From a virus, in the IMG/VR virus record IMGVR_UViG_3300028876_000011, positions 1 through 22,278 of that record: a stretch of 22,278 nucleotides of DNA, one strand, 5' to 3'. The notes beneath the pieces were generated by a model, which had not been told where the DNA came from, did no database searches, and saw only the letters and a program-made list of their open reading frames with translations. The translations under genes and the position numbers were made by a program. Numbering within the stretch: the first letter of the stretch is position 1; every line of letters begins with the position of its first letter. Below are positions 1 to 20,867 of the stretch, in pieces.

Positions 1-1452
1 CGCGCCAAGAAATGAGTCGGCATTCGCAATCGAGAAGCCGCCGTCAATCGAAACACCGAGTAATGCCTGAGAACTGTTGCACTGTATCACCAGACTATTA
101 TTCGCGCCGGGTGTTATGGGGCCAGCCTGAAGCGTGGTGCCAGTTCCTTTATCCCCGGACAATTGATCGTAGACAGGCGTGCCGGCGCTGTCACTGAACG
201 CGATAACCTGACTGGATGAGTACTGGGCCGAGATGGAGAAGGTATGCCCCGTCCCCACGGTCGGGCTTATTTTATAAAAAAGGGCGGTAGAATTATCAAC
301 GCTGGCATCAACAGGCGTTGTCCCGGCCTTTACATATGTATTACCTTTATTGTCCGTTACGGTCGCATTACTAAAGGCCCCTGGATTATTAAAGGAAACG
401 CAGGCGACTATCAGTTTCGCCCCGGTTGTATTGAGCGCCGCTGTCGTTCCGCCCGAGGAACCAGCGACGTCCGCGTTGGCGACAACGGCCCATGTGGATG
501 AGGCACCTGATATCGTGACACCCGGCGATGTCGCGTTGCTCGACAGGTCGTTGGTGATACCGAGAGTGCAACCCGTTCCGACACCAGCGGGGGTCGTGAA
601 CCTGGCGGTCCATTTTCCGCCTGAAGCCGAGAAGTTCGAAGGCGTGGCTGATCCCGAGCAACTGCCACCCCACGTCGCCGAAGAGATCGAGGATGGTGTC
701 GTGCCGCTGTAAGTGCCACTCCCTGGAATGGTTATCCCGCCCACATAACCATTGGCGAGCGCCGTGAAGGTCATTCCGCTGTTGGAAAGGGTCACATTCG
801 GCGAGGTCGCCCCGGCACCAAGGTTGTTCGTGATCGTGATGTTGCAGGCCGATCCGCCCGCGCCTGATACCGGAGTGCTGAAGTTGGCCGACCACGCGAG
901 GCTACCCGCCGTGAACCCGGTGACGGTCGAAGACCCGGCGCAGCCGGTGCCGCCCCATGTCGCGGTGCTGATGGAGGTCGGCGTGACCCCCGTGTAAGCG
1001 CCGCTCCCGGCTATCGTGGAACCACCGATAGCGCCGTTGGCGAGCGTCGGGAAAGTGATGGCGTTACCGGTCACGGTCACGTTGGGCGAGGTCGCCCCGG
1101 CCCCCAGATTGTCCGTGATCGAGATGTTGCACGATCCGCCCGTGCCCGACCCCGGAGGGGCGAAGGCCGCCGACCACGTCCCGCTACTCGCGCTGAAACC
1201 CCCGACAGCCGAAGACCCGGCGCAGCCGGTGCCGCCCCAGGTCGCGGTGCTGATGGAGGTCGGCGTGGTGCCAACATAAGTTCCACCCCCGGCTATCGAC
1301 GCCCCACCGATGGAACCGCCGGTGGATAGTGACGAAAAGGCGATGGAATGGGCACCGGCAATCGAATGCGCCATGCCTGGTCCCGGCCCCATGCCGCCTT
1401 GAGCGAACGCGGGGCCGGCAAGAAGGATGAAAAGGAAAGCAAGGGCTTTCAT
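1..1452 (-). CDS. Exported Cys-repeat protein, tail-operon end (3' end outside window)
   Basis: The frame starts with ATG at 1452 and stays open for 484 codons to the left edge, so the C-terminus is missing. It overlaps the upstream stop as TGATG. Residues 1-18 form a clear Sec signal peptide (Met-Lys, hydrophobic core, Ala-Phe-Ala before Gln-Gly-Gly). Residues about 45-315 hold three copies of a 94-95 residue module built around Thr-Trp-Gly-Gly, a Cys soon after it, a Trp-Ser/Thr-Ala strand, a second Cys before Ile-Thr-(D/N)-(N/D)-Leu, and Ser-Pro-Asn/Gly-Val-Thr. Residues about 340-484 form a different beta-rich domain with Ala-Cys-Val, Thr-Asp-Asn-Lys-Gly-Asn-Thr and Ile-Gln-Cys. This type of domain is common in phage and environmental surface proteins. 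Eight Cys are visible, an even number, which suits disulfides in the periplasm or outside the cell. An adhesin or receptor-binding accessory is the best guess; the function is not established. Confidence 0.85.
   Translation of the reverse strand, partial: MKALAFLFILLAGPAFAQGGMGPGPGMAHSIAGAHSIAFSSLSTGGSIGGASIAGGGTYVGTTPTSISTATWGGTGCAGSSAVGGFSASSGTWSAAFAPPGSGTGGSCNISITDNLGAGATSPNVTVTGNAITFPTLANGAIGGSTIAGSGAYTGVTPTSISTATWGGTGCAGSSTVTGFTAGSLAWSANFSTPVSGAGGSACNITITNNLGAGATSPNVTLSNSGMTFTALANGYVGGITIPGSGTYSGTTPSSISSATWGGSCSGSATPSNFSASGGKWTARFTTPAGVGTGCTLGITNDLSSNATSPGVTISGASSTWAVVANADVAGSSGGTTAALNTTGAKLIVACVSFNNPGAFSNATVTDNKGNTYVKAGTTPVDASVDNSTALFYKISPTVGTGHTFSISAQYSSSQVIAFSDSAGTPVYDQLSGDKGTGTTLQAGPITPGANNSLVIQCNSSQALLGVSIDGGFSIANADSFLGA
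500..1312 (-). repeat. Three tandem 282-285 bp coding repeats (94-95 aa)
   Basis: The first two copies share long identical DNA stretches. The segment starting gaagacccggcgcagccgg occurs at 1211 and 929, and gtcgcggtgctgatggaggt recurs with the same 282-base offset. The third copy (about 500-747) is 285 bases further on and more diverged. Each copy encodes one Cys pair. The closeness of copies one and two suggests recent duplication and possible copy-number variation between relatives. Confidence 0.85.
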
Positions 1453-2396
1453 CAACGCACCACCCGCCAGTTCAGGGTGATCGCCGCCGATGGGGTTATC
1501 GAGGCGCTCGTGTTGTTGCAAACCTTGAAGTTGGCGTTGTTGGCTGACGGATACACGATGATCGTCAACATTCCGTTGACCGTTGGCGCGTAACCCGTCA
1601 CCGCCGTGGGATCTCCGTTGAAGCCCCATGTAATCGTGTCGGTCGTCGCGATACCCGACCCGGCGCTCACCACGGCGGCGGCGCAAGCGCCCGACGCGAT
1701 GGAGGATGTCCCCAGGACGGCCGTGCTGTTCGCGACGGTAACCGCGCCGCCACCCGTGGACGTGGCGCTGCCGCTGACGCAGTTATAAAGCGCCCCGGAA
1801 TTGTAAACGCAGGACAGGAAACTCACCGGCCCGAGCGTGGTTTGAGACGCGATGCCCCCGCCAAGGGTCACGCCACCCGGCTTCGTCAGTGTCGCGGTCA
1901 CACCAGAGGCGGTGACCAGCATGAACGACTGACCGGCGGTCAGCGTCGGCAGCGTCGCCGTGCCGTTGGCGGTCATGGTGTCCTGACCGCCGACATTCCA
2001 TGAACTGAACGACCCGGCGTGCGTGTTGTCCGTGACCTTCATGCCGACAATCGCGTTGCCGCTACCCCCGTCCGTCACCACGAATGTGGATAAAGGGAAT
2101 GTGAGGGTCGTCGCGGTGACCGAGGTCGCCGTATCGGTGACCGTCAGCGAGCCGCCGCCACCACCGGAGCCGCACGCTGTCGTGACGACATCCCCGCTTG
2201 CATTCCGAGCCAGACAAACCGTTGGCGTCCCGGAGGGCACGGCGGACATCTTCACGGTGCCGGTGGCGTTCAGGATTGGCGTCGTGACCTGGCTCGCCGC
2301 CACCGGGCCGCAGTCCGCCGGATTGGCGGGACAGGCCGCGCGGGCCGCGCCAGCCAGCAGCGACAGGAGCGCCGCCAGGATCAGACTTTTTTGCAC
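1452..2396 (-). CDS. Exported Cys-rich protein of the tail operon
   Basis: The start is GTG at 2396, preceded by GGAGG about seven bases upstream (inside the preceding gene). The protein has 314 residues. Residues 1-20 are a typical signal peptide (Gln-Lys, then a Leu/Ala core, ending Ala-Arg-Ala before Ala-Cys-Pro). The mature part has eight Cys, including CPANPADC near its N-terminus and a Cys-Val-Tyr-Asn...Tyr-Asn-Cys pair. A Gly5 linker near residue 75 separates a short N-terminal part from a beta-rich middle. The last 80 residues (Ser-Gly-Ala-Cys ... Phe-Lys-Val-Cys-Asn ... Leu-Asn-Trp-Arg-Val) resemble a C-terminal module I associate with proteins of tail-fibre loci. It lies downstream of the fibre gene and overlaps the next exported gene by one base. 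It may be a secreted or virion-associated accessory protein; the function is unknown. Confidence 0.85.
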   Translation of the reverse strand: MQKSLILAALLSLLAGAARAACPANPADCGPVAASQVTTPILNATGTVKMSAVPSGTPTVCLARNASGDVVTTACGSGGGGGSLTVTDTATSVTATTLTFPLSTFVVTDGGSGNAIVGMKVTDNTHAGSFSSWNVGGQDTMTANGTATLPTLTAGQSFMLVTASGVTATLTKPGGVTLGGGIASQTTLGPVSFLSCVYNSGALYNCVSGSATSTGGGAVTVANSTAVLGTSSIASGACAAAVVSAGSGIATTDTITWGFNGDPTAVTGYAPTVNGMLTIIVYPSANNANFKVCNNTSASITPSAAITLNWRVVR

Positions 2397-2578
2397 AGGA
2401 AACCTCCGTTCCAGAACAGAGCGCCCGTGGCCAGTCCCGCGTCGCTGGTCGGCAAACCACTCAGATAACTTTGAATGGCGGCTCCCAGCCCCGATGCCGG
2501 GACGGCGGCATTGGCTTTGTTCTGTATCGCCAATATATCGGTGGCGTAGATTGTTTCTCCAGGCGCGATGATCCCCAT
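2381..2578 (-). CDS. Small tail-locus protein, 65 aa
   Basis: ATG at 2578 has GGAGG seven bases upstream, and the frame ends at 2381, overlapping the next start by 16 bases. The 65-residue product contains Ile-Tyr-Ala-Thr-Asp-Ile-Leu-Ala-Ile-Gln-Asn-Lys and ends with LPTSDAGLATGALFWNGG-Phe-Leu-Cys-Lys-Lys-Val. The Leu-Pro-Thr-Ser-Asp-Ala-Gly-Leu-Ala-X-Gly pattern followed by a Trp-Asn strand recurs in phage tail and fibre proteins, often near their C-termini. That suggests a small structural or fibre-associated part. I do not recognise a defined family. There is no signal peptide, unlike the gene just downstream. Confidence 0.75.
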   Translation of the reverse strand: MGIIAPGETIYATDILAIQNKANAAVPASGLGAAIQSYLSGLPTSDAGLATGALFWNGGFLCKKV

Positions 2579-2624
2579 GAGCGACCTCCCATGCTAATTG
2601 TTGAGCGCGTCATGGAACGCGGAA

Positions 2625-2864
2625 TCATGTTCCCGCGTGCGCCGCTCCGTTCGTCGCCGCCGGGACCGTCGCTTCCTCGCCCGCCGCCATCTCGCGCGCC
2701 GGGATCGCCGCCCTCGCCGCCTTCAACCCGACCTCCTGCACCTGACGCATGATCTCGGCGATGACCGGCGCGGCCTGTCGATAGGGCGCGTTGTGCAGGG
2801 CATCGATCACCCCGTTCCACATCTGCGCTTCCAACGTGATCGATACTTTGTCGGTGAGTTCCAT
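2625..2864 (-). CDS. Small conserved tail-locus protein, 79 aa
   Basis: ATG at 2864 is preceded by GAAGGA about seven bases upstream, and the gene follows the fibre gene by 10 bases. The product looks mostly helical: an N-terminal stretch (Thr-Asp-Lys-Val-Ser-Ile-Thr-Leu-Glu-Ala-Gln-Met-Trp-Asn) leads into Pro-Tyr-Arg-Gln-Ala-Ala-Pro-Val-Ile and a helix rich in Gln/Glu/Val, then an Ala-rich tail. This resembles short uncharacterised proteins found beside fibre genes in proteobacterial phages (from memory, not searched). There are no Cys, no signal peptide and no membrane segment. A chaperone or assembly role for the fibre is possible but is only inferred from position. Confidence 0.75.
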   Translation of the reverse strand: MELTDKVSITLEAQMWNGVIDALHNAPYRQAAPVIAEIMRQVQEVGLKAARAAIPAREMAAGEEATVPAATNGAAHAGT

Positions 2865-2874
2865 GTCGCTTCCT

Positions 2875-5193
2875 TCAGGTTGGTTGTGCCGCGCGGCTCT
2901 CCAACTGGACGATCCGCCGGATGGCGACCGCCAGATCGTCAGTGGTTTTGTTTAGCTTATCGTTCAGTTCGCGCAACGCATTGAGCGCGACGAACAACAG
3001 CGGCTTCTCGTCCACCGATAGCTGGCCGGGAAAGCGCGCGTCTGGCACTTTTTCTTCAGCGAAGGGGTCCATCGGTTGTGGCGGCGTATGATACACCGCT
3101 TCCGGCACCAGCTTCTCCAGTTGCTGGGCGATCAGCCCGACGCGGCGCTTGCCATCGTCAGAGGTGCCGCCCAGGCCGTTGTAGAGATAACTGACCGGCG
3201 TCAGTCGCATGATGACATCGAGGCCGCGCCGCCAGGGTGCGACCTCCTTCTTGACCCGCTCATCCGACGCGCTGTCACCGGGCATGAACGCGCCGCGGCA
3301 ATGGACATTGCCCGCGCCATCGGTCCATGACATGGCGTTGTTGCCGCCGAACGCCGTGTTGTTCGCCCGATAGACCAGTGACCCATCGTTGCTCCAGAAC
3401 AACCCCCAGCCATCGGCCTGAAACCGGATGGCGCGTCCAGGGCTGTTGCCATAGATCACGAAATCGGCCCCCGCCGCCTCGCCGATGAAGATGCCCTGCG
3501 TGACATGGAAGTTGCCGTTGGGTTCCAGCATCATGGTCCGGCTGCTGCCCCAGTACCACTCATGCGCGTAAGCGGCGCGCCCGCCACCGCTGAGAATGAA
3601 GTTGGCCCCGCCACTAAAGTCGGTGCTGCCACAGATCGTGGTGTAGGAATTGTTGACCCGGCAGTTGATGCTGTTGTCGCCGGCGGCGACGTAGAGTCGG
3701 CTGGCGACGTTACAGGTTCCGCCGATGCCGACGTTGCGCCCGACGCTGAGATCATAACCGGCGACGAGGTGGATCGCGGCACCGATGCTGCCGGTCATAT
3801 ACAGACCGCCCCGGTTGCCATCGCCGATGGGGTTCTCCGTCACCATCCCGCCGTAATAAATAATCGGGTTACCAGACCCATCCATCTGGCCAAAGCGCAG
3901 ACCGCCATCGGCATATATTCCGGCGGCGTAAGCGGCGTGGGTATCCCACACGCAGAATGATGGGTTGTTCCCGTCGCCACACGAGATGACCCGCGCGCCG
4001 TTGGTGAAGATGCGACCGGCGGTCACCAGCCCGCCGCTCATCGACACCTCGGCGGTCCTGCGACTGATGGAAATCGGCGCGTCGATGTAAGTCCCGGCAT
4101 CGTTGCATCGGCCCAGTAAGAAATCGGAACCGACGTTGCTGCCGTCCTGGTTGTCGGTCGCGCCACCGCCAAATTGCATGATCCAGCGGGTAAAGCCGCT
4201 GCTGTAGCCGACGACCTGGTTGACCTGGCTGTAGCCGTTGGGGCGGTTCAGGGTCAGCGTCGCCGACTGACCCGGCTGGGCGGCGATGGACATTCCGTTG
4301 GTGGCGGTGACGTTGCCATTGGCGGTCAGCGATCCCACCGTGGCGGCACCCGTGATCGAGAACGCACCGCCCGCCGAGAACGCGCCGGTCACCGAAAGCG
4401 TGCCGGTCATGCTCCAGCCGGTGTAGCCATTCTCGGCGTTCATGTTCAGCGTCGTCGTGCCAAAGCCGATGTAGCCCGCGCGCACACCGTTGGCCTTGTG
4501 GAAGGCCACGTAGCCAGCGTTGGTGGCGTCGCCGACGTTCAATACCGAGTAGCCGACCGACGGCATACGCGCCGTCACGTTCGCCGCCTGGAGCGTCCCG
4601 GTGACGGCGAGCGTGCCGGTGATGGCGGTGGCGGCGGCGTTCAGGGTGATGCCGGTCAGCGTCATGCCCGTGCGGGTGACGGTGAGCCAGTTGCTGGACA
4701 CGGTGTAGGGATCGTTCATCGCGCGGCCCCAGAGGGTGTTGCCGGTCGAGAGGAAGTCCCACGCCTTGCTGTCCGACGCGCCCGACTGTTCGCGCATACT
4801 GAGGATCGCGCCGCCCCCGGTGGCCGTCGCGTAGAACCCCCTGGCGGTGATGTTGGCCCCGGCGACGGAGATGTTACCCGCGTTATCGACCCACAGCGTC
4901 CGTTCCGCTGGCGTCTCGTTGTAGACTTTGGTTTCACCCAGGAAATTCAGGCGCGCGGTCGAACCCGCCGAGTTCTTTAGGACCGTCGTGCGATTCAGTT
5001 TGTTCGGGCTGCCGGCGGTATAGGTGCCGATGCCCCATTCCGATTGCGTACCGTCACTCATGACGTAAAAACATTGCGCGCCGCTCGCGAACCAAAAGCC
5101 GAACGGCAGACGCCCCGACGTGGGGCCAAGCAGATTGCAATCCGCCGTCGTTCCGGGCGCGTTGCACATCTCAAGGATCAGATTGCCGAGCAT
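2875..5193 (-). CDS. Tail fibre with C-terminal S74 autoprocessing chaperone
   Basis: I chose ATG at 5193 (772 residues) because it forms a TGATG overlap with the upstream stop and has AAGGAG eight bases before it. An upstream in-frame ATG at 5223 would add ten residues and lacks these signals. The N-terminus (Met-Leu-Gly-Asn-Leu-Ile-Leu-Glu ... Trp-Gly-Ile-Gly-Thr-Tyr ... Leu-Asn-Arg-Thr-Thr-Val-Leu) is the kind used for tail attachment. The centre is a long beta-rich Gly/Thr/Ala shaft with repeated Val-Thr-Gly motifs. The C-terminal 130 residues form an S74 intramolecular chaperone domain: SDERVKKEV places Ser643 and Lys648 five apart, the spacing of the Ser-Lys dyad in endosialidase-type chaperones, followed by Gly-Leu-Ile-Ala-Gln-Gln-Leu-Glu and a C-terminal helix. 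In this family the domain helps trimer folding and then cleaves itself off. It probably recognises the host surface. Confidence 0.9.
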   Translation of the reverse strand: MLGNLILEMCNAPGTTADCNLLGPTSGRLPFGFWFASGAQCFYVMSDGTQSEWGIGTYTAGSPNKLNRTTVLKNSAGSTARLNFLGETKVYNETPAERTLWVDNAGNISVAGANITARGFYATATGGGAILSMREQSGASDSKAWDFLSTGNTLWGRAMNDPYTVSSNWLTVTRTGMTLTGITLNAAATAITGTLAVTGTLQAANVTARMPSVGYSVLNVGDATNAGYVAFHKANGVRAGYIGFGTTTLNMNAENGYTGWSMTGTLSVTGAFSAGGAFSITGAATVGSLTANGNVTATNGMSIAAQPGQSATLTLNRPNGYSQVNQVVGYSSGFTRWIMQFGGGATDNQDGSNVGSDFLLGRCNDAGTYIDAPISISRRTAEVSMSGGLVTAGRIFTNGARVISCGDGNNPSFCVWDTHAAYAAGIYADGGLRFGQMDGSGNPIIYYGGMVTENPIGDGNRGGLYMTGSIGAAIHLVAGYDLSVGRNVGIGGTCNVASRLYVAAGDNSINCRVNNSYTTICGSTDFSGGANFILSGGGRAAYAHEWYWGSSRTMMLEPNGNFHVTQGIFIGEAAGADFVIYGNSPGRAIRFQADGWGLFWSNDGSLVYRANNTAFGGNNAMSWTDGAGNVHCRGAFMPGDSASDERVKKEVAPWRRGLDVIMRLTPVSYLYNGLGGTSDDGKRRVGLIAQQLEKLVPEAVYHTPPQPMDPFAEEKVPDARFPGQLSVDEKPLLFVALNALRELNDKLNKTTDDLAVAIRRIVQLESRAAQPT

Positions 5194-5978
5194 CAGAGGC
5201 GCTCCTTGATACGGAATTTCCACGCGTGTCGATCATGGAATCCCGCGATATAGCTGACATCGGCGGTCACCGTGACACGACCGAACACCGCTTCTCCGCT
5301 TATCGTCGCCGAAGCGAGATCGGACACGAAAAGAATGTTGCCGCCGTAACGGGAAATCCGGTCCAGGTTCTGCGCCTCGGTCCACAGTTCGCTGTCGGTG
5401 ATGGCGTCGAACGCCACCTCCCATCGCCGTTGCTGGAACCGATACGTTGGGTATTCCTGACCGCCACGCGAGATCATTTCATCGACCGTCGAGTCCCGGC
5501 CAAATGTCGAATTCCATGTATGCCCCAGCACCGGCTGCCAGGCCGGTCCCGCGTAAGCCAGCGGCACGTTCACGAAGCCGTCCGGATTGCCCGCGTCGGT
5601 GATATCGACAACGCAATAATCAGCCTCGATGTCAGTGGGGGCCACGGCGACGACCTGGGCGTAGCCCGGACGCGGCCCGGTCACCGTGCCGCTCCAGACC
5701 AGCGTGGACGGATTGATGAACAGGCTGAACGTCACGCTCGCGCCCTGCGACAGATTGGTGCGGAACAGGCCGAACAGCCGCCAGGCCTGGCGTACCGATG
5801 TCACCCGGAAGGTCGCCCCATCGGTGGGCGTCATAACGCCAGAGACGGTCTGCCAGGCCACGGAGGCCGCGCCTGAATCGATTTGCAGATTGGTGATCGG
5901 CATCGACGGTACCGACGACCCGGCGATCAGCGCGCCCGATTTGACCAAATTGTTGATGCCAAGAACCGTGTTGCCCAT
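5193..5978 (-). CDS. Distal tail protein, 261 aa
   Basis: ATG at 5978 overlaps the upstream stop as TGATG, and its own stop overlaps the fibre start the same way, so the gene is probably translationally coupled on both sides. The product is beta-rich with no signal peptide. Visible elements include Leu-Phe-Gly-Leu-Phe-Arg-Thr-Asn near residue 70, Pro-Gly-Tyr-Ala-Gln-Val and an aromatic centre (Tyr-Arg-Phe-Gln-Gln-Arg-Arg-Trp-Glu-Val). The C-terminus is Trp-Lys-Phe-Arg-Ile-Lys-Glu-Arg-Leu. Its place between a large distal tail protein and the fibre suggests a tail-tip or fibre-connecting structural protein. I do not recognise a named family. Confidence 0.85.
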   Translation of the reverse strand: MGNTVLGINNLVKSGALIAGSSVPSMPITNLQIDSGAASVAWQTVSGVMTPTDGATFRVTSVRQAWRLFGLFRTNLSQGASVTFSLFINPSTLVWSGTVTGPRPGYAQVVAVAPTDIEADYCVVDITDAGNPDGFVNVPLAYAGPAWQPVLGHTWNSTFGRDSTVDEMISRGGQEYPTYRFQQRRWEVAFDAITDSELWTEAQNLDRISRYGGNILFVSDLASATISGEAVFGRVTVTADVSYIAGFHDRHAWKFRIKERL

Positions 5979-7799: not shown

Positions 7800-10700
7800 T
7801 CATGCCGCTATGCGAGCCGGGGCGCTCGCGTTCTGGCGCAGTTGCGTGGTGATGTTATCCACCGCCGCTTTTAGATCCGCCAGCGAGGACACCAGTTCCG
7901 CCGTCTGGGTGCGCGTCTCGACCTGGAGGACCGACGCGATGACCGTGTCGGGTGCCACGTTGGCCACCGCGCCCAGCGCCTCAAGCACCCGCTGGAAGTC
8001 GCTGACGTAGGCTTCGCCAGAGCCAAACACGGCGCGCGAAGCGTTGAGGAATGTGTCGGCGTAGCCTTGCAGTTGCTGGATCGAGGTGTAATCGCCCGCG
8101 CCAGCCGCCCCGGCGACGGCGTTGAACCGGCTGCGCGCCAGAGCGAGCTGGTCCTGCGGCGACAACGGCGAGGCGTTGGAGGTTTGCAGCCCCTGCGCGT
8201 AGGCCACCAGCGAGGTGATCGACCCCGCCGCCGTCGCCGCCGCCGCCTCGCTTTTGGCGGTGATCTCGTCGGCGTATTTCTTGACGATGGCGAGCCGCTC
8301 CTCGCCGAGCGTGACCTCCAGCAGCGACATCTGATCGGCGTAGGACCGCGACGCGGTGTAGCTGTCGCCGAACAGGCCGATCAACTGATCGCGGAAAGCC
8401 ACCCGCTGGCGTGCCGCGCTCAGATCGAAGCTGAACAGTTCCTTGTCCTGGGCGCTGGCCGATCCGGCGTTGACGCGCCGCGCGTTCAGATCCTCGTCAG
8501 CCGTGACCACGGTCTTCCACGCCGCCTCGATCTGTTCGTTATACTTCCTGATGATGGCGAGACGTTCCGCGCCAAGCGTCCGCTCCTCCAGCGCCATCTG
8601 ATCGGCGTAGGCCTGGGTGGACCGGAACGCCTCGCCGAACGAGGCGATCATGCCATCACTGAAATCCTGCCGTTCGCGGTTGGCCCGCACATCGAACGAA
8701 TAGAGTTCCTTGTTGAGGTCGTCATAAGGGCCGGCACTCTTCGTGGCGGCGTTGATGCGGATGTTGAAGTCCTCATCCGCCCTGGTCAGGCTCTTCCACG
8801 CGGCGGTGATCGCCTCGGCGTATTTCCGGACGATCTCGGCTCGCTCCGCGCCATGCACCCGCTCCATCAGGTTGATCTGATCGGCGTAGGCCTGGGTGGT
8901 GCGGTACGCCTGGCCGTAAACCTCGGCAAGCTGGTCGCCGAACTGCTGCGTCTCCCGGTTAGCCTTGATATCGAAGGCGAACAGTTCCTTGCCCCGCGCG
9001 TCGCCAGGCGTGGCGTTGGACAGCCGCACCATCAGATCCTCAAGAGCGTATCGGATCTGTTTTTCCGCCGCGATGATCTGTTCGGCGGCCTGCCTGACGA
9101 GGGCGACGCGCTCCGCTCCCAGCGTCTCCTCCAGTTGCCGCATCTGATCGGCGTAATAGGCGGTGGAGGTGAACGCGTCGCCGAACATATCGACCAGTTG
9201 TTTCTTGTAGGCCGTGCGCTGTTGGTCCGCGCCCTGATCGAAACTCGCCAGCGCGATGGCGCGCGGGTCTTCGCCGTTCGCCTGCATCCGGCGGATGCGG
9301 AGCGTGGTGTCGAAGTCGCGGATCTGGGCGTTCGCCGCATCGCGGATCTTCGCCTCGCCCGCCGCCTGGGCGGCGGTCAGTTCCTCGGTCGCCAGGCCGT
9401 ATTTCTTCGACCCCTCGACCGCCGCGTTGAACGCGTCGTTCAGTTCCTTGACCGCCGCCTCGACCGACCCGGTGGTCTTGCCGAAATTCATCAGCGTCGG
9501 GATCGTACTCTCGACCAGGGTGTGATACTCGGTGATGGCTTTCTGGAGCGTGGCGCTGTCTTCGAAGCCGCGACCTTGCAGGTATTTGTTCAGGTTCGGA
9601 TCATCGGAACTGAAACGTAACTGACTAAAACCAGAAGCAAGATCCTTGAATTTCGATGGATCCTGGAAACCATGAGGCGAGTTCGTGCCCAACTGGCCGA
9701 CCTCGCCGAGCGAAGTCAACTTCAACGCTGTCTGATCGAGATAGGTGTTCAGATTCCGCACGTCAGTCAGCGCCTGTGTGCGCTCCGCGTCGGTATCCAC
9801 GCCCTGTCCCAGTGTCTGCCCGACCTGGGCGTGGCCATCCGAGAGCGACAGCAGCGTTGACGAGAACGGCGAGGCTTTCTTGGGGCCGATGAAGCCACCC
9901 GCGCCGCCACCAAGCGTGCCGCCGATCAGACCACCGATGAGTGTGCCGACACCAGGAATGATGCTGCCAATGATCGCGCCCGCGATGGCACCCGCCGCCG
10001 CGCCAATCTCGGGCGCGTATCCGGTCGTGCCACGCGCTCCCTGGATACCTTCCCCCGCCAGACTGCCAAGCACGAAGCCGCCGCCGATACCGCCAAGAGT
10101 GCCCCCAAGCGTACTCATGCCGGGACCAGCCGCTGTCAGCGGACCACTACCGAATAAGCTACCCGCTCCACTGATAGGCGTACCAAAGATCGTACCGCCA
10201 CCCTGGACGGCGAACAGACTGCCGCCAGGGCCGCCAAGATAGCTGTTGATCGAGCCGCCGATGCCGGTCTTCAGTCCCAGCGCGTCAGCGAGGAAACCGG
10301 CACCTGATGTGCCGACGCTACTGAGAGAGCCGCCAATGCCGTTGGTGGAGCGGCCAGACGTATCGTCGGTCACGCGGCCACTCGCCGCGCCAGCGCCGCC
10401 ACCGAACAGGCCCGAGAGGGCGAGGTCGAGTGTCGGCTGGGTCGGGCCGACGCCAAGGTAATTCAGGAAGGGACCGACGAACGCCAGCTTGAGGAAGGCC
10501 TGCAACACTTGTTGCGCGGCCGCGGTCATCACGTTCTTCCAGTTCACGGCGGCACCCTGGCCGCTGATGAACGCCTGGGTGATCGAGTTGCCGATGGCGT
10601 CGAACGCCTGGGTGAACGCGGTGCTGAGTGAGTTGACCGACGCCTCGGTATTTTTCAGCGCCTGATTCTGGCGCATCAGATCGTCCAGCAATGCCAGCCG

Positions 10701-13700
10701 CGTGGCGGCGTCTTCTTTCTCGGCTCCGGGGGCCATGTTCTTCACGGCCTGTTCGTCCTTCAGTCTCTGAATGACGCGCTCCCGCGCGTCGGCATTCATT
10801 CCCAGAGTTTTGGTCTGAAGCTGGACGACGGCGATCTCGTCCCTGGTGGTATCGTTGGCCTTGTTGAGCGTGACCCTGGCCGCGGCGGCGGCCTGTTTCT
10901 CCATCTCAAGCGTCAACACGGCGGTCGCCTTGGTCGCGTCGTCCGAACCTTCCTTATAGACCTTGTTCGCTTCCGCGAGCGCCTTGTTGGCGATTTCCGT
11001 ATGGAATGCGGAAACCGCGCCCTTCTCCCACGACGCGGCCAAAGCATCGTTGGCGGCGGTGTCTTCCCTGATCGCGCGGACCTGAAGGTCGATCAGGGGG
11101 ACGCTGTCGTACAGTTCCTTGTTGAGCGCCGCCGCCTGTTGCGCCAGCGCGGCGCTGGCCGGATTGGCCGCCGCCGCCTGTTGGGCATATTTTAATCTGG
11201 TCGTGAGTTCCTCGGCCCGACGCGCGGGTGTGTTCGCCGCCTGTTCCGCTTCCAGTTTCCGCGTGGATTCAAGTTGCTGATCGTACAGCTTGTTTATTTG
11301 CGCCTCGGCGGCGATGCGTTTGTCGTTTTCCGGCCCAAACTCCTCCCTTACCGTGACCAGGGCTTTTTCCCTGTTCGCCTGAATCTGCGCCGCTTCCGAT
11401 CCATGTTGCCACGCGAGAGCCATGCGGTTGCTGGCGTCGGTGTCTTCCTTGATTTTACGGATCTTGGCATCGAACGCCGGAATCGATTCGTAGATGTCCT
11501 TCGTCAACCTTTGATGCGACTGCTGCAACGCGACGTTGTTGGGGTCCATCCGCAACAAATCCTCGACAGCCTTTTTCTGTCGCTCAAGCGCCTCGGTGGT
11601 CCTCTGTGGCGTCCCCGCCGCCTCGGCGGCGTTTTTCCGTTCGGTGACGCGGGTCAGTTCGTCAAACTCGGAGTTTATCAACGAGATGGTGGCCGGGAGG
11701 TCTTTACTTTTCTCACCCAGTATCTGCGTCGCCTCGGCGATGGCCTTTACTCTGTTGGTGTTTTGGATGGCGGCGTCGGTGCCGCCCTTCCAGGCATCGC
11801 CCTGCGAAATCTCGGCGTCGATGTTTTGCCTGATGGAGCGGACGAGTTTCTCCGTCGCCGGAACCGCTTCAGAGAGTTGCTTGGTGAGGTCTTGCCGATA
11901 CTGGAGATAAGCCACGTTGTTCGGGTCAACCTTCAACAGATCATCGATGCCCTTGAGCGACTGGGCCAGAGCCTGTGATGTCCGTTCCGGCGTTCCGGCG
12001 GCGGCTTTGTTCGCGGCCTCTCTGGCGATGCGTAAATCGTTGATGAGTTTGATGGTCTTTTCCAGGTTCTGCCCATCGACGCCGACATGCATCGGGTCGG
12101 TTGTTCTGAACGAGTAACCAGAGGTCAGCCCCCACTTCGCCGCGAATCCCAGCATGCGCTCGCGACCAAGATCGCCCTCCGTCCCTTCCTGGTTGGTCCT
12201 GGCGTTGAAATCGACCGCGCCACCCGACGCATGCTTGCTTGGCTGACCGGTGCCCCTGACGGTGGCGTAGGGCCGGTAGCTGGACATCTCGATGATCCGG
12301 TAACCGGTGTCCTCCAGGTCTTTGACGAATCCCTCGAAAGCGGGGGCGAGATCTTTCCGCACCGTGTAATCCACCCCGCTGCGCGTGCGGAGCGTGACCA
12401 TTTCGTCTGGCGTGGCTCTGCTGGAGAGAGTTGACGTTGAGCGATTCCCGGTGCCGCCGATCCCGCTGGTGTAAAGACTGGCTGGTAATCCGCCTGGAAA
12501 CAGCGGCGAGATGCCGCGCGTCACGAATTCTCCGAGCGTGGGACCGCCTCTCTTCGCCACCTCGTTATTGTAGTCGCGCAGTTTTTCCACCACGGCGGCG
12601 ATGGCGTTCTCAATCGTCCCGAGTATCCGCACGACGGGAGAACCCATCTGTTCCATGAAGGATTTGCCGCCCTGCCCCGCCACGGTGAACGCCTTGTTCA
12701 GTCGTTCGCCCGCCCTTTCAAAGTCGGTCACCGATTTCGTGGTGTTTTCCAGCGCCGCGCGTTGCCGGGTCAGATACAGCGTGAACGCGTCGTTGATCTT
12801 CCCCGCGAGTTCCAGATCATGGATGCTTTCAACGAGTTTCGTGTCGAACCCATCCAGCCGCCCGATGAGGGCTTCCGCCGCCTTCGACGGCGAGGTCATG
12901 GATTCGGCGAACCGTTTCGACGCCGCCGGGATATCCTCGCCCAGCGCGAGCGATAGTTTCTCGATATCCTGGGCGAGGGCGACGATGTCGGTTCGATTGC
13001 CCTTGAAATCCATCGCCTTGACGAGCGCGTTTGAGGCGGTGCGCGCGTCCTCGGTCGAGAGCGACGTGGTCCGCGCCAGGATCTTCGCCGCCTCCTCGGC
13101 TTCCGTCGCCATTTCCTTGTAATCGACGCGCGAACCGGACAGGGACTGTTCCAGTCTGCCGACACGCGCCATGGAACTTTCCGCCGCGATGCCGACCGCC
13201 GTGATGGCTCCGGCGACGGCGGCGAAAGCCGCTATCGCCGCGCCGATTGGCGTGACCAATAACGCGAACCCCGAGCCGATCATCTTGAGCGCGCCACCGG
13301 CCATTTCCTTCATGGAAATACCCGACGCCCACATGACATCGGCGACCTGGTGACCTTGTTGGATCAAGGTAATCATGAACGGCTGGCCGGTCGCGATGCC
13401 GGAAAAGAACTGCGACATCTGCACGGTCAACTGCTGCGTCGCGAACTTCATCTGACCAACGGAAGCAGTGCCGTTCTTGACCTTTTGGTCGAGTTCCTCG
13501 TGGCTCTTGCCAGTGTTGTTGATGATGGCGACCTCTCGGTCATAGGTCGCCGCGGCCTGTTTGCGCGCGTTATCCGCCACCACCGTCTGATCGGTGTTGT
13601 GAATCTCCCATTCGCCGATCGAGGTCAGCGTGGCCCGGTATTTTTCGCCCGCGGCGAACAACCGGTCGAACCCGGCACGCTTCGCGTTGAGTTCCGCTTC

Positions 13701-15029
13701 GGTGGGGCCGGTCGCCGTATCGACGGTGACGCCGTCCCTTTTCTTGATCGCCACGACCTCGGCGTCGTAGGCGGCGGTGGTCCGTTTGATCGCCGCCGTG
13801 ATGAGGTCGCTTTCTCCCGGCAGCAACTTCTCGGCCGCCCGCAGACGTTCGATTTCCTTGTCGTATCTCTGGGTCGCGGCGGTCAGCGGATCGATGCTGG
13901 CGCGTAATTTATCCAGATCGACGTGAGCCGTGCCCAGTTCGTTGATCGCCTTGACGTTCGCGTAATACTCATCGGCCAGTTTCGCCAGTTCCGTCTCGAT
14001 CACCTTGGCGCTGGACCCCAGCTTGCCGTGATCGGCGATGACTTCCGCCATCGCGGCCTGATACTTTTGCAGCGCGGCGGTGAGCGGATTGTACTTGGCT
14101 TCCAGTTGGCCCAGTTCCGCGAAGGTTTCTTCCAGTTCCCGCTGGCGCTTCGCTTTCTCCGCGCCGTAAAGCGGGTTGGTGATGGTGAGCGTATTGTCGG
14201 TTTGACGCGCCACCGGAGCCGATCCCGGTGCCACGCGCGGGTCCAGGGTCATCTGGCTCGCCGCGATGACGCCAAGCCTCATGGTGCGGGCCGCGGCCTC
14301 GACATCGGCCATGTGCGCTTCCACGTCGCGCATGCCCTTAACCGCGTCGGAGGTGCTGTTGTACAGCCGCCTGTAGGCGTCCCCGGCCTCGTCTATCGAT
14401 ATGACTTCCTTGTCCAGGGCGAAGCCAACCTCGGCCACCGCGTTGGCGAACGCCTTTTGTTGCGCTTCCAGCGGCACCAGCTTGGCGCGCAGCCCATCGA
14501 CATCGACGGCGACTTCCTTCACCCCCTTGGACAATCGCTCCGCCGTCGTGTTCATAAACGCCATCGCGTCGGCGACATCGATGGTCCCGGCTTCCAACCG
14601 GCCCATGACGGTGATGAGTTCTTTCTCGCGCATCTCCAGTTGTTTCGTCCGCGCGATGGCCTCGTCGTCTTTGATCTTCTTGGCGATCAACAGCGTATCG
14701 ACGCCCTTGATCGCCTGGCCGACCTTGCCCAGTTCCCGCGACAGCGAGGTGTGGGCGAAGATCAGCGGGTCCATGCGGCCCAGGTAGGCGTCGGATTCCG
14801 CCTTCGCCTTGCGGAGCGCCCCCGCCGTGATCGTCAGCGCGTCGGCGGCGTCTATCCCGGCTTCCGCCGCCCGTTCGGTGGCGGCGGTGTTCTCCATGAT
14901 CTTGGCGGTGGTCTTGTCGAACTCGCGTTGCGCCGCCCGCTGCGCCGCCGCCAGTTGCGCCATGCTGAGTTCGGCCTGATCGGCATCGATAATAATCTCG
15001 GTAACGATCCGATTTGTGCTGCCGCTCAC
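7800..15029 (-). CDS. Tape measure protein with embedded M15-type peptidase
   Basis: The start is GTG at 15029, overlapping the chaperone-frame stop as GTGA, with AAGGA upstream. At 2409 residues this is one of the longer tape measures. Residues 1-530 are mostly helical/coiled. Residues about 533-780 match TMP_2-type prophage tape measures, with a hydrophobic stretch near 573-613. Residues about 871-993 look like an M15/VanY-type carboxypeptidase or L-Ala-D-Glu peptidase: Ser-Ser-Tyr-Arg-Pro-Tyr, SKHASGGAVD (His933, Asp940) and DPMHV (His981) supply the expected zinc ligands. Residues about 1007-1393 hold three 128-residue repeats, about 1536-1720 are Gly-rich with a hydrophobic GAAAGAIAGAIIGSIIPGVG segment, and about 1925-2256 hold four 89-93 residue repeats. 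The protein should set tail length, line the tube and assist DNA entry; the peptidase would locally cut peptidoglycan during injection. Confidence 0.95.
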   Translation of the reverse strand: MSGSTNRIVTEIIIDADQAELSMAQLAAAQRAAQREFDKTTAKIMENTAATERAAEAGIDAADALTITAGALRKAKAESDAYLGRMDPLIFAHTSLSRELGKVGQAIKGVDTLLIAKKIKDDEAIARTKQLEMREKELITVMGRLEAGTIDVADAMAFMNTTAERLSKGVKEVAVDVDGLRAKLVPLEAQQKAFANAVAEVGFALDKEVISIDEAGDAYRRLYNSTSDAVKGMRDVEAHMADVEAAARTMRLGVIAASQMTLDPRVAPGSAPVARQTDNTLTITNPLYGAEKAKRQRELEETFAELGQLEAKYNPLTAALQKYQAAMAEVIADHGKLGSSAKVIETELAKLADEYYANVKAINELGTAHVDLDKLRASIDPLTAATQRYDKEIERLRAAEKLLPGESDLITAAIKRTTAAYDAEVVAIKKRDGVTVDTATGPTEAELNAKRAGFDRLFAAGEKYRATLTSIGEWEIHNTDQTVVADNARKQAAATYDREVAIINNTGKSHEELDQKVKNGTASVGQMKFATQQLTVQMSQFFSGIATGQPFMITLIQQGHQVADVMWASGISMKEMAGGALKMIGSGFALLVTPIGAAIAAFAAVAGAITAVGIAAESSMARVGRLEQSLSGSRVDYKEMATEAEEAAKILARTTSLSTEDARTASNALVKAMDFKGNRTDIVALAQDIEKLSLALGEDIPAASKRFAESMTSPSKAAEALIGRLDGFDTKLVESIHDLELAGKINDAFTLYLTRQRAALENTTKSVTDFERAGERLNKAFTVAGQGGKSFMEQMGSPVVRILGTIENAIAAVVEKLRDYNNEVAKRGGPTLGEFVTRGISPLFPGGLPASLYTSGIGGTGNRSTSTLSSRATPDEMVTLRTRSGVDYTVRKDLAPAFEGFVKDLEDTGYRIIEMSSYRPYATVRGTGQPSKHASGGAVDFNARTNQEGTEGDLGRERMLGFAAKWGLTSGYSFRTTDPMHVGVDGQNLEKTIKLINDLRIAREAANKAAAGTPERTSQALAQSLKGIDDLLKVDPNNVAYLQYRQDLTKQLSEAVPATEKLVRSIRQNIDAEISQGDAWKGGTDAAIQNTNRVKAIAEATQILGEKSKDLPATISLINSEFDELTRVTERKNAAEAAGTPQRTTEALERQKKAVEDLLRMDPNNVALQQSHQRLTKDIYESIPAFDAKIRKIKEDTDASNRMALAWQHGSEAAQIQANREKALVTVREEFGPENDKRIAAEAQINKLYDQQLESTRKLEAEQAANTPARRAEELTTRLKYAQQAAAANPASAALAQQAAALNKELYDSVPLIDLQVRAIREDTAANDALAASWEKGAVSAFHTEIANKALAEANKVYKEGSDDATKATAVLTLEMEKQAAAAARVTLNKANDTTRDEIAVVQLQTKTLGMNADARERVIQRLKDEQAVKNMAPGAEKEDAATRLALLDDLMRQNQALKNTEASVNSLSTAFTQAFDAIGNSITQAFISGQGAAVNWKNVMTAAAQQVLQAFLKLAFVGPFLNYLGVGPTQPTLDLALSGLFGGGAGAASGRVTDDTSGRSTNGIGGSLSSVGTSGAGFLADALGLKTGIGGSINSYLGGPGGSLFAVQGGGTIFGTPISGAGSLFGSGPLTAAGPGMSTLGGTLGGIGGGFVLGSLAGEGIQGARGTTGYAPEIGAAAGAIAGAIIGSIIPGVGTLIGGLIGGTLGGGAGGFIGPKKASPFSSTLLSLSDGHAQVGQTLGQGVDTDAERTQALTDVRNLNTYLDQTALKLTSLGEVGQLGTNSPHGFQDPSKFKDLASGFSQLRFSSDDPNLNKYLQGRGFEDSATLQKAITEYHTLVESTIPTLMNFGKTTGSVEAAVKELNDAFNAAVEGSKKYGLATEELTAAQAAGEAKIRDAANAQIRDFDTTLRIRRMQANGEDPRAIALASFDQGADQQRTAYKKQLVDMFGDAFTSTAYYADQMRQLEETLGAERVALVRQAAEQIIAAEKQIRYALEDLMVRLSNATPGDARGKELFAFDIKANRETQQFGDQLAEVYGQAYRTTQAYADQINLMERVHGAERAEIVRKYAEAITAAWKSLTRADEDFNIRINAATKSAGPYDDLNKELYSFDVRANRERQDFSDGMIASFGEAFRSTQAYADQMALEERTLGAERLAIIRKYNEQIEAAWKTVVTADEDLNARRVNAGSASAQDKELFSFDLSAARQRVAFRDQLIGLFGDSYTASRSYADQMSLLEVTLGEERLAIVKKYADEITAKSEAAAATAAGSITSLVAYAQGLQTSNASPLSPQDQLALARSRFNAVAGAAGAGDYTSIQQLQGYADTFLNASRAVFGSGEAYVSDFQRVLEALGAVANVAPDTVIASVLQVETRTQTAELVSSLADLKAAVDNITTQLRQNASAPARIAA
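8260..9260 (-). repeat. Four tandem 267-279 bp repeats in the tape measure C-terminal part
   Basis: The phase marker ctgatcggcg occurs at 8331, 8598, 8877 and 9144, giving offsets of 267, 279 and 267 bases (89, 93 and 89 residues). Each unit reads roughly Phe-Asp-X-X-Ala-X-Arg-X-X-X-X-Phe ... Phe-Gly-X-Ala-Phe-X-Ser-Thr ... Tyr-Ala-Asp-Gln-Met ... Leu-Gly-Ala-Glu-Arg and is predicted to be helical. Changes in copy number would be expected to alter tail length. Confidence 0.85.
10850..12010 (-). repeat. Three tandem ~385 bp repeats in the tape measure centre
   Basis: Three diverged copies of about 128 residues are visible at residues about 1007-1393. Each begins Gly/Asn-Thr-Pro-X-Arg, then a helical stretch with Asp-Pro-Asn-Asn-Val-Ala (Asn-Pro-Ala-Ser-Ala-Ala in the third), Val-Pro ... 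Val/Ile-Arg-X-Ile ... Asp, and Ala-X-X-Trp-X-X-Gly. They follow directly after the peptidase domain. Similarity is clearer in protein than in DNA, so the duplication is old. Confidence 0.75.
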
Positions 15030-18674: not shown

Positions 18675-19336
18675 GCGTTGAATTCCTGAAACGGTTGCAG
18701 CATGTCGCAAATCTCTGGCGGCAGCGCCGACGTATTCGGCATCGTCATGCTGTTGTATTCTTCCTTGATGACGCCTGGGATTTCCTGCGAACGCAGGAAT
18801 CGGTCACGGCCCCAGGTGTCATTGCGGATCTTCAGCAGCGACAGGCATGCCGCCTGCAAATCGGGCGGCAAATTGTTCGGGTCGTAACCGCCGGTATAAG
18901 TGATCTCCAGGCTCATCATGGCGCTGTTCGACCAATGCCACGACCAATAAGACCGTTGCCCCTCACTGAGCCGCCACAGCCGCCCGCGGTAGGCATCAAG
19001 CTGGTAATCATCCGCGGTCAGCGGCGGATCATCATCGACCGAGCCGAACGACACGATCTCGGTCACCGGATAGCGCCGCAGGGTCAGGGGGCGGATTTCC
19101 ACCGAGACTTCCGGCAGATACCAAAAATCAGTGCCATGCCATGTCTCGCTGACCGTTTCCCTTATCAGGGTTCGATTGCAGTGCCGCTCGATGTAAACGC
19201 TGGTTTCGCGTATCCAGCGCGCCAGGCGGGCATCGTTCTCATCGCTGGTGATGCCAAGTTCCTCCTTGGCGATCTCCAGCGTCGTCAGGTCGTGCGACGC
19301 CGCCGGTTCGATCACCTCGATGACGGAAGATTTCAT
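18671..19336 (-). CDS. gp6-like head-tail connector protein
   Basis: ATG at 19336 overlaps the methyltransferase stop as ATGA. The 221-residue product has hallmarks of the phage gp6-like connector family: an N-terminal segment Thr-Thr-Leu-Glu-Ile-Ala-Lys-Glu-Glu-Leu-Gly-Ile, then Asp-Ala-Arg-Leu-Ala-Arg-Trp-Ile-Arg-Glu-Thr-Ser-Val-Tyr-Ile-Glu. A Leu-Arg-Arg-Tyr-Pro-Val-Thr-Glu-Ile segment, Tyr-Thr-Gly-Gly-Tyr and Pro-Pro-Asp-Leu-Gln-Ala-Ala-Cys follow. These proteins form a ring under the portal and link it to the tail. It starts the neck module of the operon. Confidence 0.9.
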   Translation of the reverse strand: MKSSVIEVIEPAASHDLTTLEIAKEELGITSDENDARLARWIRETSVYIERHCNRTLIRETVSETWHGTDFWYLPEVSVEIRPLTLRRYPVTEIVSFGSVDDDPPLTADDYQLDAYRGRLWRLSEGQRSYWSWHWSNSAMMSLEITYTGGYDPNNLPPDLQAACLSLLKIRNDTWGRDRFLRSQEIPGVIKEEYNSMTMPNTSALPPEICDMLQPFQEFNA

Positions 19337-20004
19337 GGCCGCGACACCCTCCGAAACGCGAACGAGGTGATCCCCTCACGGCCCAGGATCGTCTCCACGT
19401 CGCTGACCTCGCGCAGCTTCCAACCAAGCCTGTCCATGAAAATGATCAGGCCCGCCTTACTGAAGTACCAATAATGCTCATCCTTCCGATAATGTTTCGA
19501 CTTCAACACCTCGGCGGGACCAGGAAAGACCGGAAGCGAAATGAAGACGCTGTCCTCGACCTGTTCCAACAGCTTTGGAAAATCAGGGATATGCTCCAGG
19601 CTGTCCCAGAACGACATCGCCAGGCACGGCTGGCGGTAGGGGTTCCACAGCTTCTCCCGCGCCTTCAACCACGCCACACCCGCCGGGTTCACGTCATAAC
19701 CCCAGGTAAACGGTCGGGCGTTCACGAAGGCACCGCTGCCGATACCGATGTCCACCAAATGACCGGTGTAATGCCGCGCGACCAGCGCGATGCGCGCGAC
19801 GTTCAGCTTCGATCCCAGTTCGGTCTGGGCGTAGCCCTGATACTTGGCGAAGTAGGCCTCGTCATAAATATGGGTGCCGCCGGTCGCCGGGTAATAGCCG
19901 TAGCCCAGTTCCGGAAACCAGCAGAGTTCAGTCGCCAGCGTCCTGGTCAGGCAGCGCGGGAAGACCGGGAAAGGCGTGGCAAGGCACTCGCCCAGCGACG
20001 CCAT
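19333..20004 (-). CDS. Class I SAM-dependent methyltransferase
   Basis: I favour ATG at 20004 (223 residues), with GGAAAAG close upstream and a 58-base overlap with the glycosyltransferase. The frame is open further, to 20205, but that part reads as a shadow of the upstream gene; a CTG at 19950 is another option. The SAM-binding motif I is VDIGIGSGAF at residues 84-93, and Gly-Tyr-Asp-Val-Asn-Pro near 102-107 supplies the acidic residue that follows strand two. Phe-Trp-Asp-Ser-Leu-Glu-His-Ile (132-139) is motif-like for the family. An N-terminal Tyr-rich segment (Gly-Tyr-Gly-Tyr-Tyr, Tyr-Asp-Glu-Ala-Tyr-Phe) precedes it. The substrate is unknown. It lies between a glycosyltransferase and the connector, so DNA, sugar or virion protein modification are all possible. 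Confidence 0.8.
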   Translation of the reverse strand: MASLGECLATPFPVFPRCLTRTLATELCWFPELGYGYYPATGGTHIYDEAYFAKYQGYAQTELGSKLNVARIALVARHYTGHLVDIGIGSGAFVNARPFTWGYDVNPAGVAWLKAREKLWNPYRQPCLAMSFWDSLEHIPDFPKLLEQVEDSVFISLPVFPGPAEVLKSKHYRKDEHYWYFSKAGLIIFMDRLGWKLREVSDVETILGREGITSFAFRRVSRP

Positions 20005-20867
20005 TGCTTTTCCAGGTCCGGTATCAGCTTCACGCACTGGTGCCGCATATCGATGCATTGGCAGTAATCCTTTGGTGTCGCGAAACCGATCTTCGATCCG
20101 TCCATGCGCCGATCTATGATTTTCGATGGCGCGTTCATCCCACCATTGCCACCAAGCACGACGAAGGTTGGCGTCTTCATCGCTATCGCCGCCGGAACGA
20201 TCCATCCGACACCGCCAACGACCACCGCCGCGTCCCTGACCATCGCCATCAGCTGGTTCACCGTGCCCTCGCCGCGCAACCGGGCCAGGTTATGTGGCGG
20301 CGGCACACCGCCCTCGATCCATTCCGCGTTGTGCGTGTTGCTGGTGTCGGCGATGACGACCACCGCGAAGCCGCGCCGCTTGAGGTCGCCGGCGACGAAG
20401 TTGATATATTCCGGCAGCGGATTGCGCGCCTGGTTGTCCCACTCCAGCCGCCGCATCACCGGGCGCACGACGGCCAGCGGCGCGCCACCCGTGTCGAACG
20501 GACATGGACCCATATCCGGTAAATCCCAGTTGGGCGCTCTCGCTTCCGGCTTCGTCATGGGCAGCTTGCGTTCCATGGCGGCGAACACGCCATGTTCCAT
20601 TTCGAGGTGACCGTAGCCCAGCGCGATGGTGCCCAGGCCCGCCGGTAACGGGGTCCAACGCTCCGGTGGCTGGCGGCGGATGTTCTTGTTCTGGGTTCGC
20701 AGTAATCGCTCGCCGCGCACGAACTTCAGGTTGTCGATGTCGTCGTAGAATTCCGGCCACGGCGTATCGACATAAAGGGTGCGCTGTTTCGCCGCCGATT
20801 TAAGGAGGGGCCTGACGTAGATCGCGTCGCCCAGGCCCCACGGCGCTTTGATGTGTAGTGGCGTCAA
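19947..20867 (-). CDS. GT9-like glycosyltransferase
   Basis: The start is TTG at 20867, giving a TTGA overlap with the preceding stop and GGAAAG upstream. An N-terminal motif starting at residue 5 (His-Ile-Lys-Ala-Pro-Trp-Gly-Leu-Gly-Asp-Ala-Ile-Tyr) shows the start cannot be much later. The 306-residue product resembles heptosyltransferase-type GT-B enzymes: that N-terminal Gly-Asp loop, a linker, and a C-terminal part with Val-Val-Gly-Gly-Val-Gly-Trp-Ile-Val-Pro-Ala-Ala (216-227) then Pro-Thr-Phe-Val-Val-Leu-Gly-Gly-Asn-Gly-Gly, a likely nucleotide-sugar site. Three Cys cluster at 269, 271 and 278. No membrane segment is visible. It could glycosylate a virion protein or alter the host surface; the substrate is not known. 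Confidence 0.75.
   Translation of the reverse strand: MTPLHIKAPWGLGDAIYVRPLLKSAAKQRTLYVDTPWPEFYDDIDNLKFVRGERLLRTQNKNIRRQPPERWTPLPAGLGTIALGYGHLEMEHGVFAAMERKLPMTKPEARAPNWDLPDMGPCPFDTGGAPLAVVRPVMRRLEWDNQARNPLPEYINFVAGDLKRRGFAVVVIADTSNTHNAEWIEGGVPPPHNLARLRGEGTVNQLMAMVRDAAVVVGGVGWIVPAAIAMKTPTFVVLGGNGGMNAPSKIIDRRMDGSKIGFATPKDYCQCIDMRHQCVKLIPDLEKQWRRWASALPRLSRSSRAA

Follow-up and report, generated by a model that had tools for sequence, protein, structure and literature searches.

The adhesins of tailed phages are taken to be folded and assembled under the reducing conditions of the cytoplasm, which is also where tailed virions are put together. A question is raised by the stretch of DNA analysed here (referred to as the window), a 22,278-bp linear phage fragment from IMG/VR: what are two genes with export signals, A and B, doing downstream of a tail fibre gene?

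Signal-bearing genes are known near the tail genes of other phages, including those for Llp of T5 and Cor of phi80/N15. The lom gene of lambda is a further example (PMC12309495). Genes A and B, and the gene C that follows them in related phages, resemble lom, llp and cor in that exported proteins are encoded among or beside tail genes. However, Lom, Llp and Cor are a small outer-membrane protein or lipoproteins, whereas A-C are large fibre-like or enzyme proteins, mostly lacking a lipobox, a separation that is made by description and not by sequence. Diversity-generating phage tail adhesins, in turn, have been reported to lack signal peptides, which was read as a mark of phage origin (PMC6199706); they share with the proteins considered here a role in ligand binding, which for A-C is a proposed one, but they are described without signals. 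A limited literature search, covering exported tail or virion proteins and signal-bearing viral glycosidases, returned no report of an exported fibre cassette; a study of phiCbK dealt with lysis proteins.

We propose that A-B(-C) very probably constitutes a secreted, disulfide-bonded adhesin cassette of tail-fibre-type proteins, and the sequences suggest that, in some tailed phages, folding of a part of the host-recognition apparatus takes place beyond the cytoplasm. As to the use made of the exported proteins, we somewhat favour their joining virions at lysis. Because this virion step is itself a proposal, we place the finding among tail adhesin cassettes, which are of a known kind; if the step were shown, it is the biogenesis route that would be new.

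Gene layout of the window

The minus strand of the window carries head-tail genes, a tail tube gene, a long tape-measure gene, tail-tip genes and an S74 fibre gene, followed by genes A and B. The features at this end are as follows.

2875..5223, minus strand: S74-chaperone tail fibre gene (Pfam PF13884, E 1.8e-12; PHROG tail fibre), upstream of gene A, without a signal peptide
2381..2578, minus strand: 65-aa open reading frame ending LPTSDAGLATGALFWNGGFLCKKV, without a signal, overlapping the start of gene A by 16 nt
2403..2407, minus strand: Shine-Dalgarno sequence GGAGG of gene A, lying where the 65-aa frame encodes its final residues WNGGF, with a 6-nt spacer
2396..1452, minus strand: gene A, predicted exported fibre-like protein of 314 aa, GTG start preceded by the GGAGG, homologs on viral contigs
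2337..2396, minus strand: Sec-type signal peptide of gene A, MQKSLILAALLSLLAGAARA, kept in locus L003
1..1452, minus strand: gene B, truncated where the record ends so that 484 of its 522 aa are seen, its start overlapping the stop of gene A (ATGATG)
1402..1452, minus strand: Sec-type signal peptide of gene B, MKALAFLFILLAGPAFA, whose counterparts in L102, L128, L142 and L152 are Tat-like
1375..1401, minus strand: N-terminal tag of mature gene B, QGGMGPGPG, of which PGP[GN] recurs in B proteins
790..1311, minus strand: tandem repeat in gene B with a 282-nt period, in modules of about 94 aa with two cysteines each
1..468, minus strand: C-terminal domain of gene B, related to domains in signal-less proteins of other phage contigs

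The earlier note had described each of the two proteins as starting with a Sec signal with an Ala-X-Ala end and as having eight cysteines, and the translated frames bear this out for gene A and for the visible part of gene B; the complete 522-aa B protein of a sister phage also has eight. Its single interval for both genes, 1452-2396, is correct for gene A, while gene B lies at 1..1452. That the pair appeared to be the last two genes is owed to the record being a linear fragment. The sister phage (L214; IMGVR_UViG_3300043609_000052, 44,926 bp), which is collinear with the window at 93-99% DNA identity and completes gene B, continues with a third signal-bearing gene, C (689 aa, DUF2341), and then with signal-less tail and lysis genes. 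Positions 1-3762, the A/B end of the window, are 98.8% identical to the sister phage, against about 93% in the adjacent tail genes, which suggests that the adhesin region was exchanged recently.

Some smaller observations may be added. The arrangement of Shine-Dalgarno sequence and upstream frame in L003 resembles that at 2381-2407. On reading the sequence, a methyltransferase-like frame and a glycosyltransferase-9-like frame lie at 19333-20867, inside the head-tail block, and residues 926-982 of the tape-measure protein (7800-15029) include a stretch with a weak likeness to Peptidase_M15_4 (Pfam E 0.008, below the cut-off).

Export signals

Relatives were collected with a five-member alignment, which led to 34 viral loci, and with a 42-member alignment, which led to 167 IMG/VR stretches, of which 80 were kept; no fewer than 80 uncultured phages share the cassette with its predicted secretion. 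Statistics on gene A refer to 87 distinct members, counted by their C-termini, three of which have an open 5' end. Signals were scored by a heuristic of our own that considers the charge of the N-region, the hydrophobic core and the AxA cleavage site.

Both window proteins have a basic n-region, a hydrophobic core and an AxA site, with MQKSLILAALLSLLAGAARA followed by ACPANPADC in gene A and MKALAFLFILLAGPAFA followed by QGGMGPGPG in gene B. Neither signal has a lipobox cysteine, and with lengths of 314 and 522 aa the proteins do not fit the Cor/Llp type of lipoprotein; most cassette proteins, likewise, have neither a lipobox nor a membrane anchor. The gene A of L003, 49% identical to that of the window, has the signal MQKNLILAVILSLLAGSSAWA. 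By the heuristic, signals were found in 24-27 of 31 A genes, in 22-25 of the 31 genes that follow them (B) and in 14-18 of 26 C genes, whereas the other genes of the same loci gave a background of about 10% (9-10/91). Nearly all of the 87 distinct A genes scored as signal-bearing.

The signals also change in kind. In L102, L128, L142 and L152 the tag of gene B is preceded by Tat-like signals (MDRRRFLKTAAG..., PRRKLLRLAA..., SRRTFIKSAA... and TRRLFLRGAA...). Moreover, the mature gene A proteins of L055 and L060 are identical at 271 of 285 residues (95%), while their signals share 18 of 57 bases, as if the signal had been wholly replaced. When a further fibre family (NPGVxTQG) was sought that has both signal-bearing and signal-less members, this pair alone turned up, so that a second such family is anecdotal.

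Cysteines and the gene A domain

The part common to the gene A family is its last ~95 residues, which is also the only confident part of the AlphaFold model.

1455..1742, minus strand: conserved C-terminal beta-sandwich domain of gene A (alignment; AlphaFold pLDDT ~97)
1683..1685, minus strand: codon of Cys238, first of a conserved pair (40/41 alignment rows; 79/87 distinct members)
1518..1520, minus strand: codon of Cys293, second of the pair (41/42 alignment rows; 79/87 distinct members)

Foldseek comparison of the modelled domain gave weak matches to tailspikes, H-type lectins and phage minor tail proteins. Specifically, it resembles the C-terminal beta-sandwiches of the tailspikes LKA1 gp49 and phi297 gp61 and the H-type lectins, all at E above 0.2, with no PDB match below that value and no sequence match in the PDB. 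By these weak matches the modelled fold is fibre-like, which speaks in favour of a virion role.

The one alignment row that covers both cysteine positions without having the cysteines has lost the two together. In the gene A set, 75 members have both signal and pair, two a signal without the pair (L132 and L078), six neither, and one the pair without a signal (L145, with a weak signal at another start); the association gives a Fisher p of 5e-7 when kinship among the members is ignored. Of 77 signal-bearing A proteins, 76 have an even number of cysteines in the mature part, ranging from 2 to 40. The same holds beyond the conserved domain, where non-zero counts are even in 70 of 72 cases, compared with 183 of 337 signal-less background genes. 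Consecutive cysteines lie a median of 16 residues apart within presumed pairs and 70 between them. Even counts are weaker in gene B (55/67) and gene C (24/36), and the gene A of L171 has no signal yet 14 cysteines. Since the C-terminal domain of gene B gave no clear cysteine contrast between signal-bearing and signal-less proteins, we claim a coupling of signal and cysteines for gene A only.

The proposal in the earlier note that the pair acts beyond the cytoplasm is thereby strengthened, as the signals are conserved across very divergent phages, swap from Sec to Tat and are replaced, and as even cysteine numbers are near-universal and the pair is lost where the signal is absent.

The gene B tag and the bodies of B and C proteins

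PGP[GN] occurs within the first 50 aa in 51 of 71 B proteins and once in their remaining 23,901 residues. A motif search with the tag alone returned 31 stretches; those with a long open frame mostly follow a signal and an A-type C-terminus, and the rest look like chance matches.

Genes A and B of the window have no match in Pfam, PHROG or NCBIfam, and A, B and C have none among the PADLOC models of anti-phage defence. The bodies of gene B proteins resemble tail fibres or glycan-binding domains, and those of some relatives match PHROG tail, tail-fibre, minor tail and virion families. The gene B of L152, one of those with a Tat-type signal, shares 39% identity across 280 aa with RcapMu gp58, whose annotation is that of a tail-related structural protein, and the L152 domain is also found inside tail and J-type proteins of Rhizobium phages; together with RcWaterboi gp56, these are homologous to the L152 body at 39-43% identity and are annotated as tail or minor tail proteins. 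RcapMu gp58 has no signal peptide, and its N-terminus, MTGLPGCGMGGGG, resembles the gene B tag only loosely. B and C proteins also carry LamG, arabinofuranosidase, GH5, GH43, GH29, beta-helix and GDSL lipase domains. The third genes of two cassettes (L097 5426-6406; L102 8091-10772) include a protein like a GH29 alpha-L-fucosidase behind a Tat-like signal and another, large protein, also signal-bearing, resembling a spike of the pectate-lyase type.

The earlier note held that clear homology to fibres assembled in the cytoplasm, without export, would count against it. Cytoplasmic tail proteins do contain homologous domains, yet in copies that have no signal, and in the gene A family the signal-less cytoplasmic copies lack the cysteine pair as well. 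It is very improbable that A and B are ordinary cytoplasmic tail fibres with N-termini that are hydrophobic and merely signal-like: such a view is consistent with their position in the tail operon and with the homologies just given, but would leave the even cysteine counts, the Tat-like signals, the wholesale signal replacement and the placing of a tag after the cleavage site without a reason.

Virion adhesins or free proteins

Export would be compatible with more than one place of action. Signal-less copies are informative here. In L171 both A and B are without a signal, and in B the tag follows the start methionine (MLSCLPWPGPGGG), a short way after a stop codon; L125 and L143 each combine a signal-less A with a following gene, likewise signal-less, that looks like one for a LamG-type adhesin. 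Such copies could hardly be used except by the virion; on the simplest view the copies, exported or cytoplasmic, would all serve in the end as virion adhesins.

It is nevertheless a possibility of some weight, though on balance doubtful, that the exported proteins never join virions and work instead at the surface of the host or after release into the medium. They might mask receptors (superinfection exclusion), keep progeny off debris, loosen extracellular glycans or alter the surface of a lysogen, as do small signal-bearing proteins of other phages. The sequence support for the export route serves this explanation equally, the LamG, glycosidase, beta-helix and lipase domains of B and C are plausible in free enzymes, and a cassette in a Bryobacterales chromosome has no recognisable phage genes near it (see below). 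Furthermore, the window phage has other adhesin genes that are signal-less; with an S74 fibre and further tail genes of this kind, it could employ A-C for extra functions. Against it, other phages have A genes with neither signal nor cysteine pair amid their structural genes, and from the cytoplasm the products could hardly serve anything except virions; the bodies match virion-protein families, and most of the proteins have no lipobox or membrane anchor.

Joining the virion at lysis, which we continue to favour, may proceed as follows. The precursors of A and B (and C), probably made late, would cross the inner membrane by Sec or, in some relatives, by Tat, as the signals strongly indicate. 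In the periplasm paired cysteines would be oxidised to local disulfides within fibre regions; this has strong support in gene A, with one disulfide in the C-terminal sandwich, and weaker support in B and C. Signal peptidase would free the N-terminal tag of gene B ending PGPG, in agreement with the position of the tag. The tag may then dock gene B to a further component of the fibre, with the C-terminal domain of gene A, encoded immediately before gene B, as a candidate. Finally, at lysis, with the membranes broken down, the oxidised fibres, of a glycan-binding or glycan-cleaving kind, might attach to tails, where they could act as receptor-binding or depolymerising tips. Late joining of this kind is a proposal, given that virions assemble in the cytoplasm. 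For the complete statement, that in tailed phages of several architectures fibres exported by Sec or Tat, oxidised in the periplasm and PGPG-tagged through signal peptidase join virions when the cell breaks, we regard the balance as even.

A recurrent exported cassette of disulfide-rich adhesins would amount to a second route of adhesin biogenesis and would explain how phages come to use disulfide-stabilised fibres. A signal followed by PGPG offers a sequence tag for finding receptor-binding modules in uncultured phages, and signal-bearing glycoside hydrolases of soil viromes, often called metabolic cargo, may belong to adhesin cassettes.

Distribution and a possible host origin

The genes flanking the cassette match a wide range of PHROGs (portals, terminases, head proteases, major head proteins and endolysins), and its carriers are accordingly phages of varied make-up. 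Among cultured phages (50,697 phage records), tblastn with A, B and a consensus A domain gave no match, as did tblastn with the A domain in 72,556 plasmids; a genome scan with P0001 alone gave zero matches. Three of 396 Acidobacteriota genomes did match: one in a compact prophage with a terminase, one with a phage-free cassette and one weakly.

These counts bear on whether phages acquired a host operon for secreted proteins as cargo (a moron). Signals and CAZyme domains are typical of cell proteins, and the cassette does occur in a chromosome next to sugar genes; but three matching genomes, one of them weak and one a prophage, stand against 167 viral stretches, and the chromosomal A gene does not look intact, which together make such an origin very improbable. 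The chromosomal case, L209, is a Bryobacterales MAG in which an A-B-C cassette (8233-14939) has heptose and UDP-sugar genes for neighbours; the ~5-8 kb visible to each side contain no gene recognisable as phage. The gene A of this cassette, in a masked stretch, seems to be divided over two frames, and the cassette may be either a remnant or domesticated.
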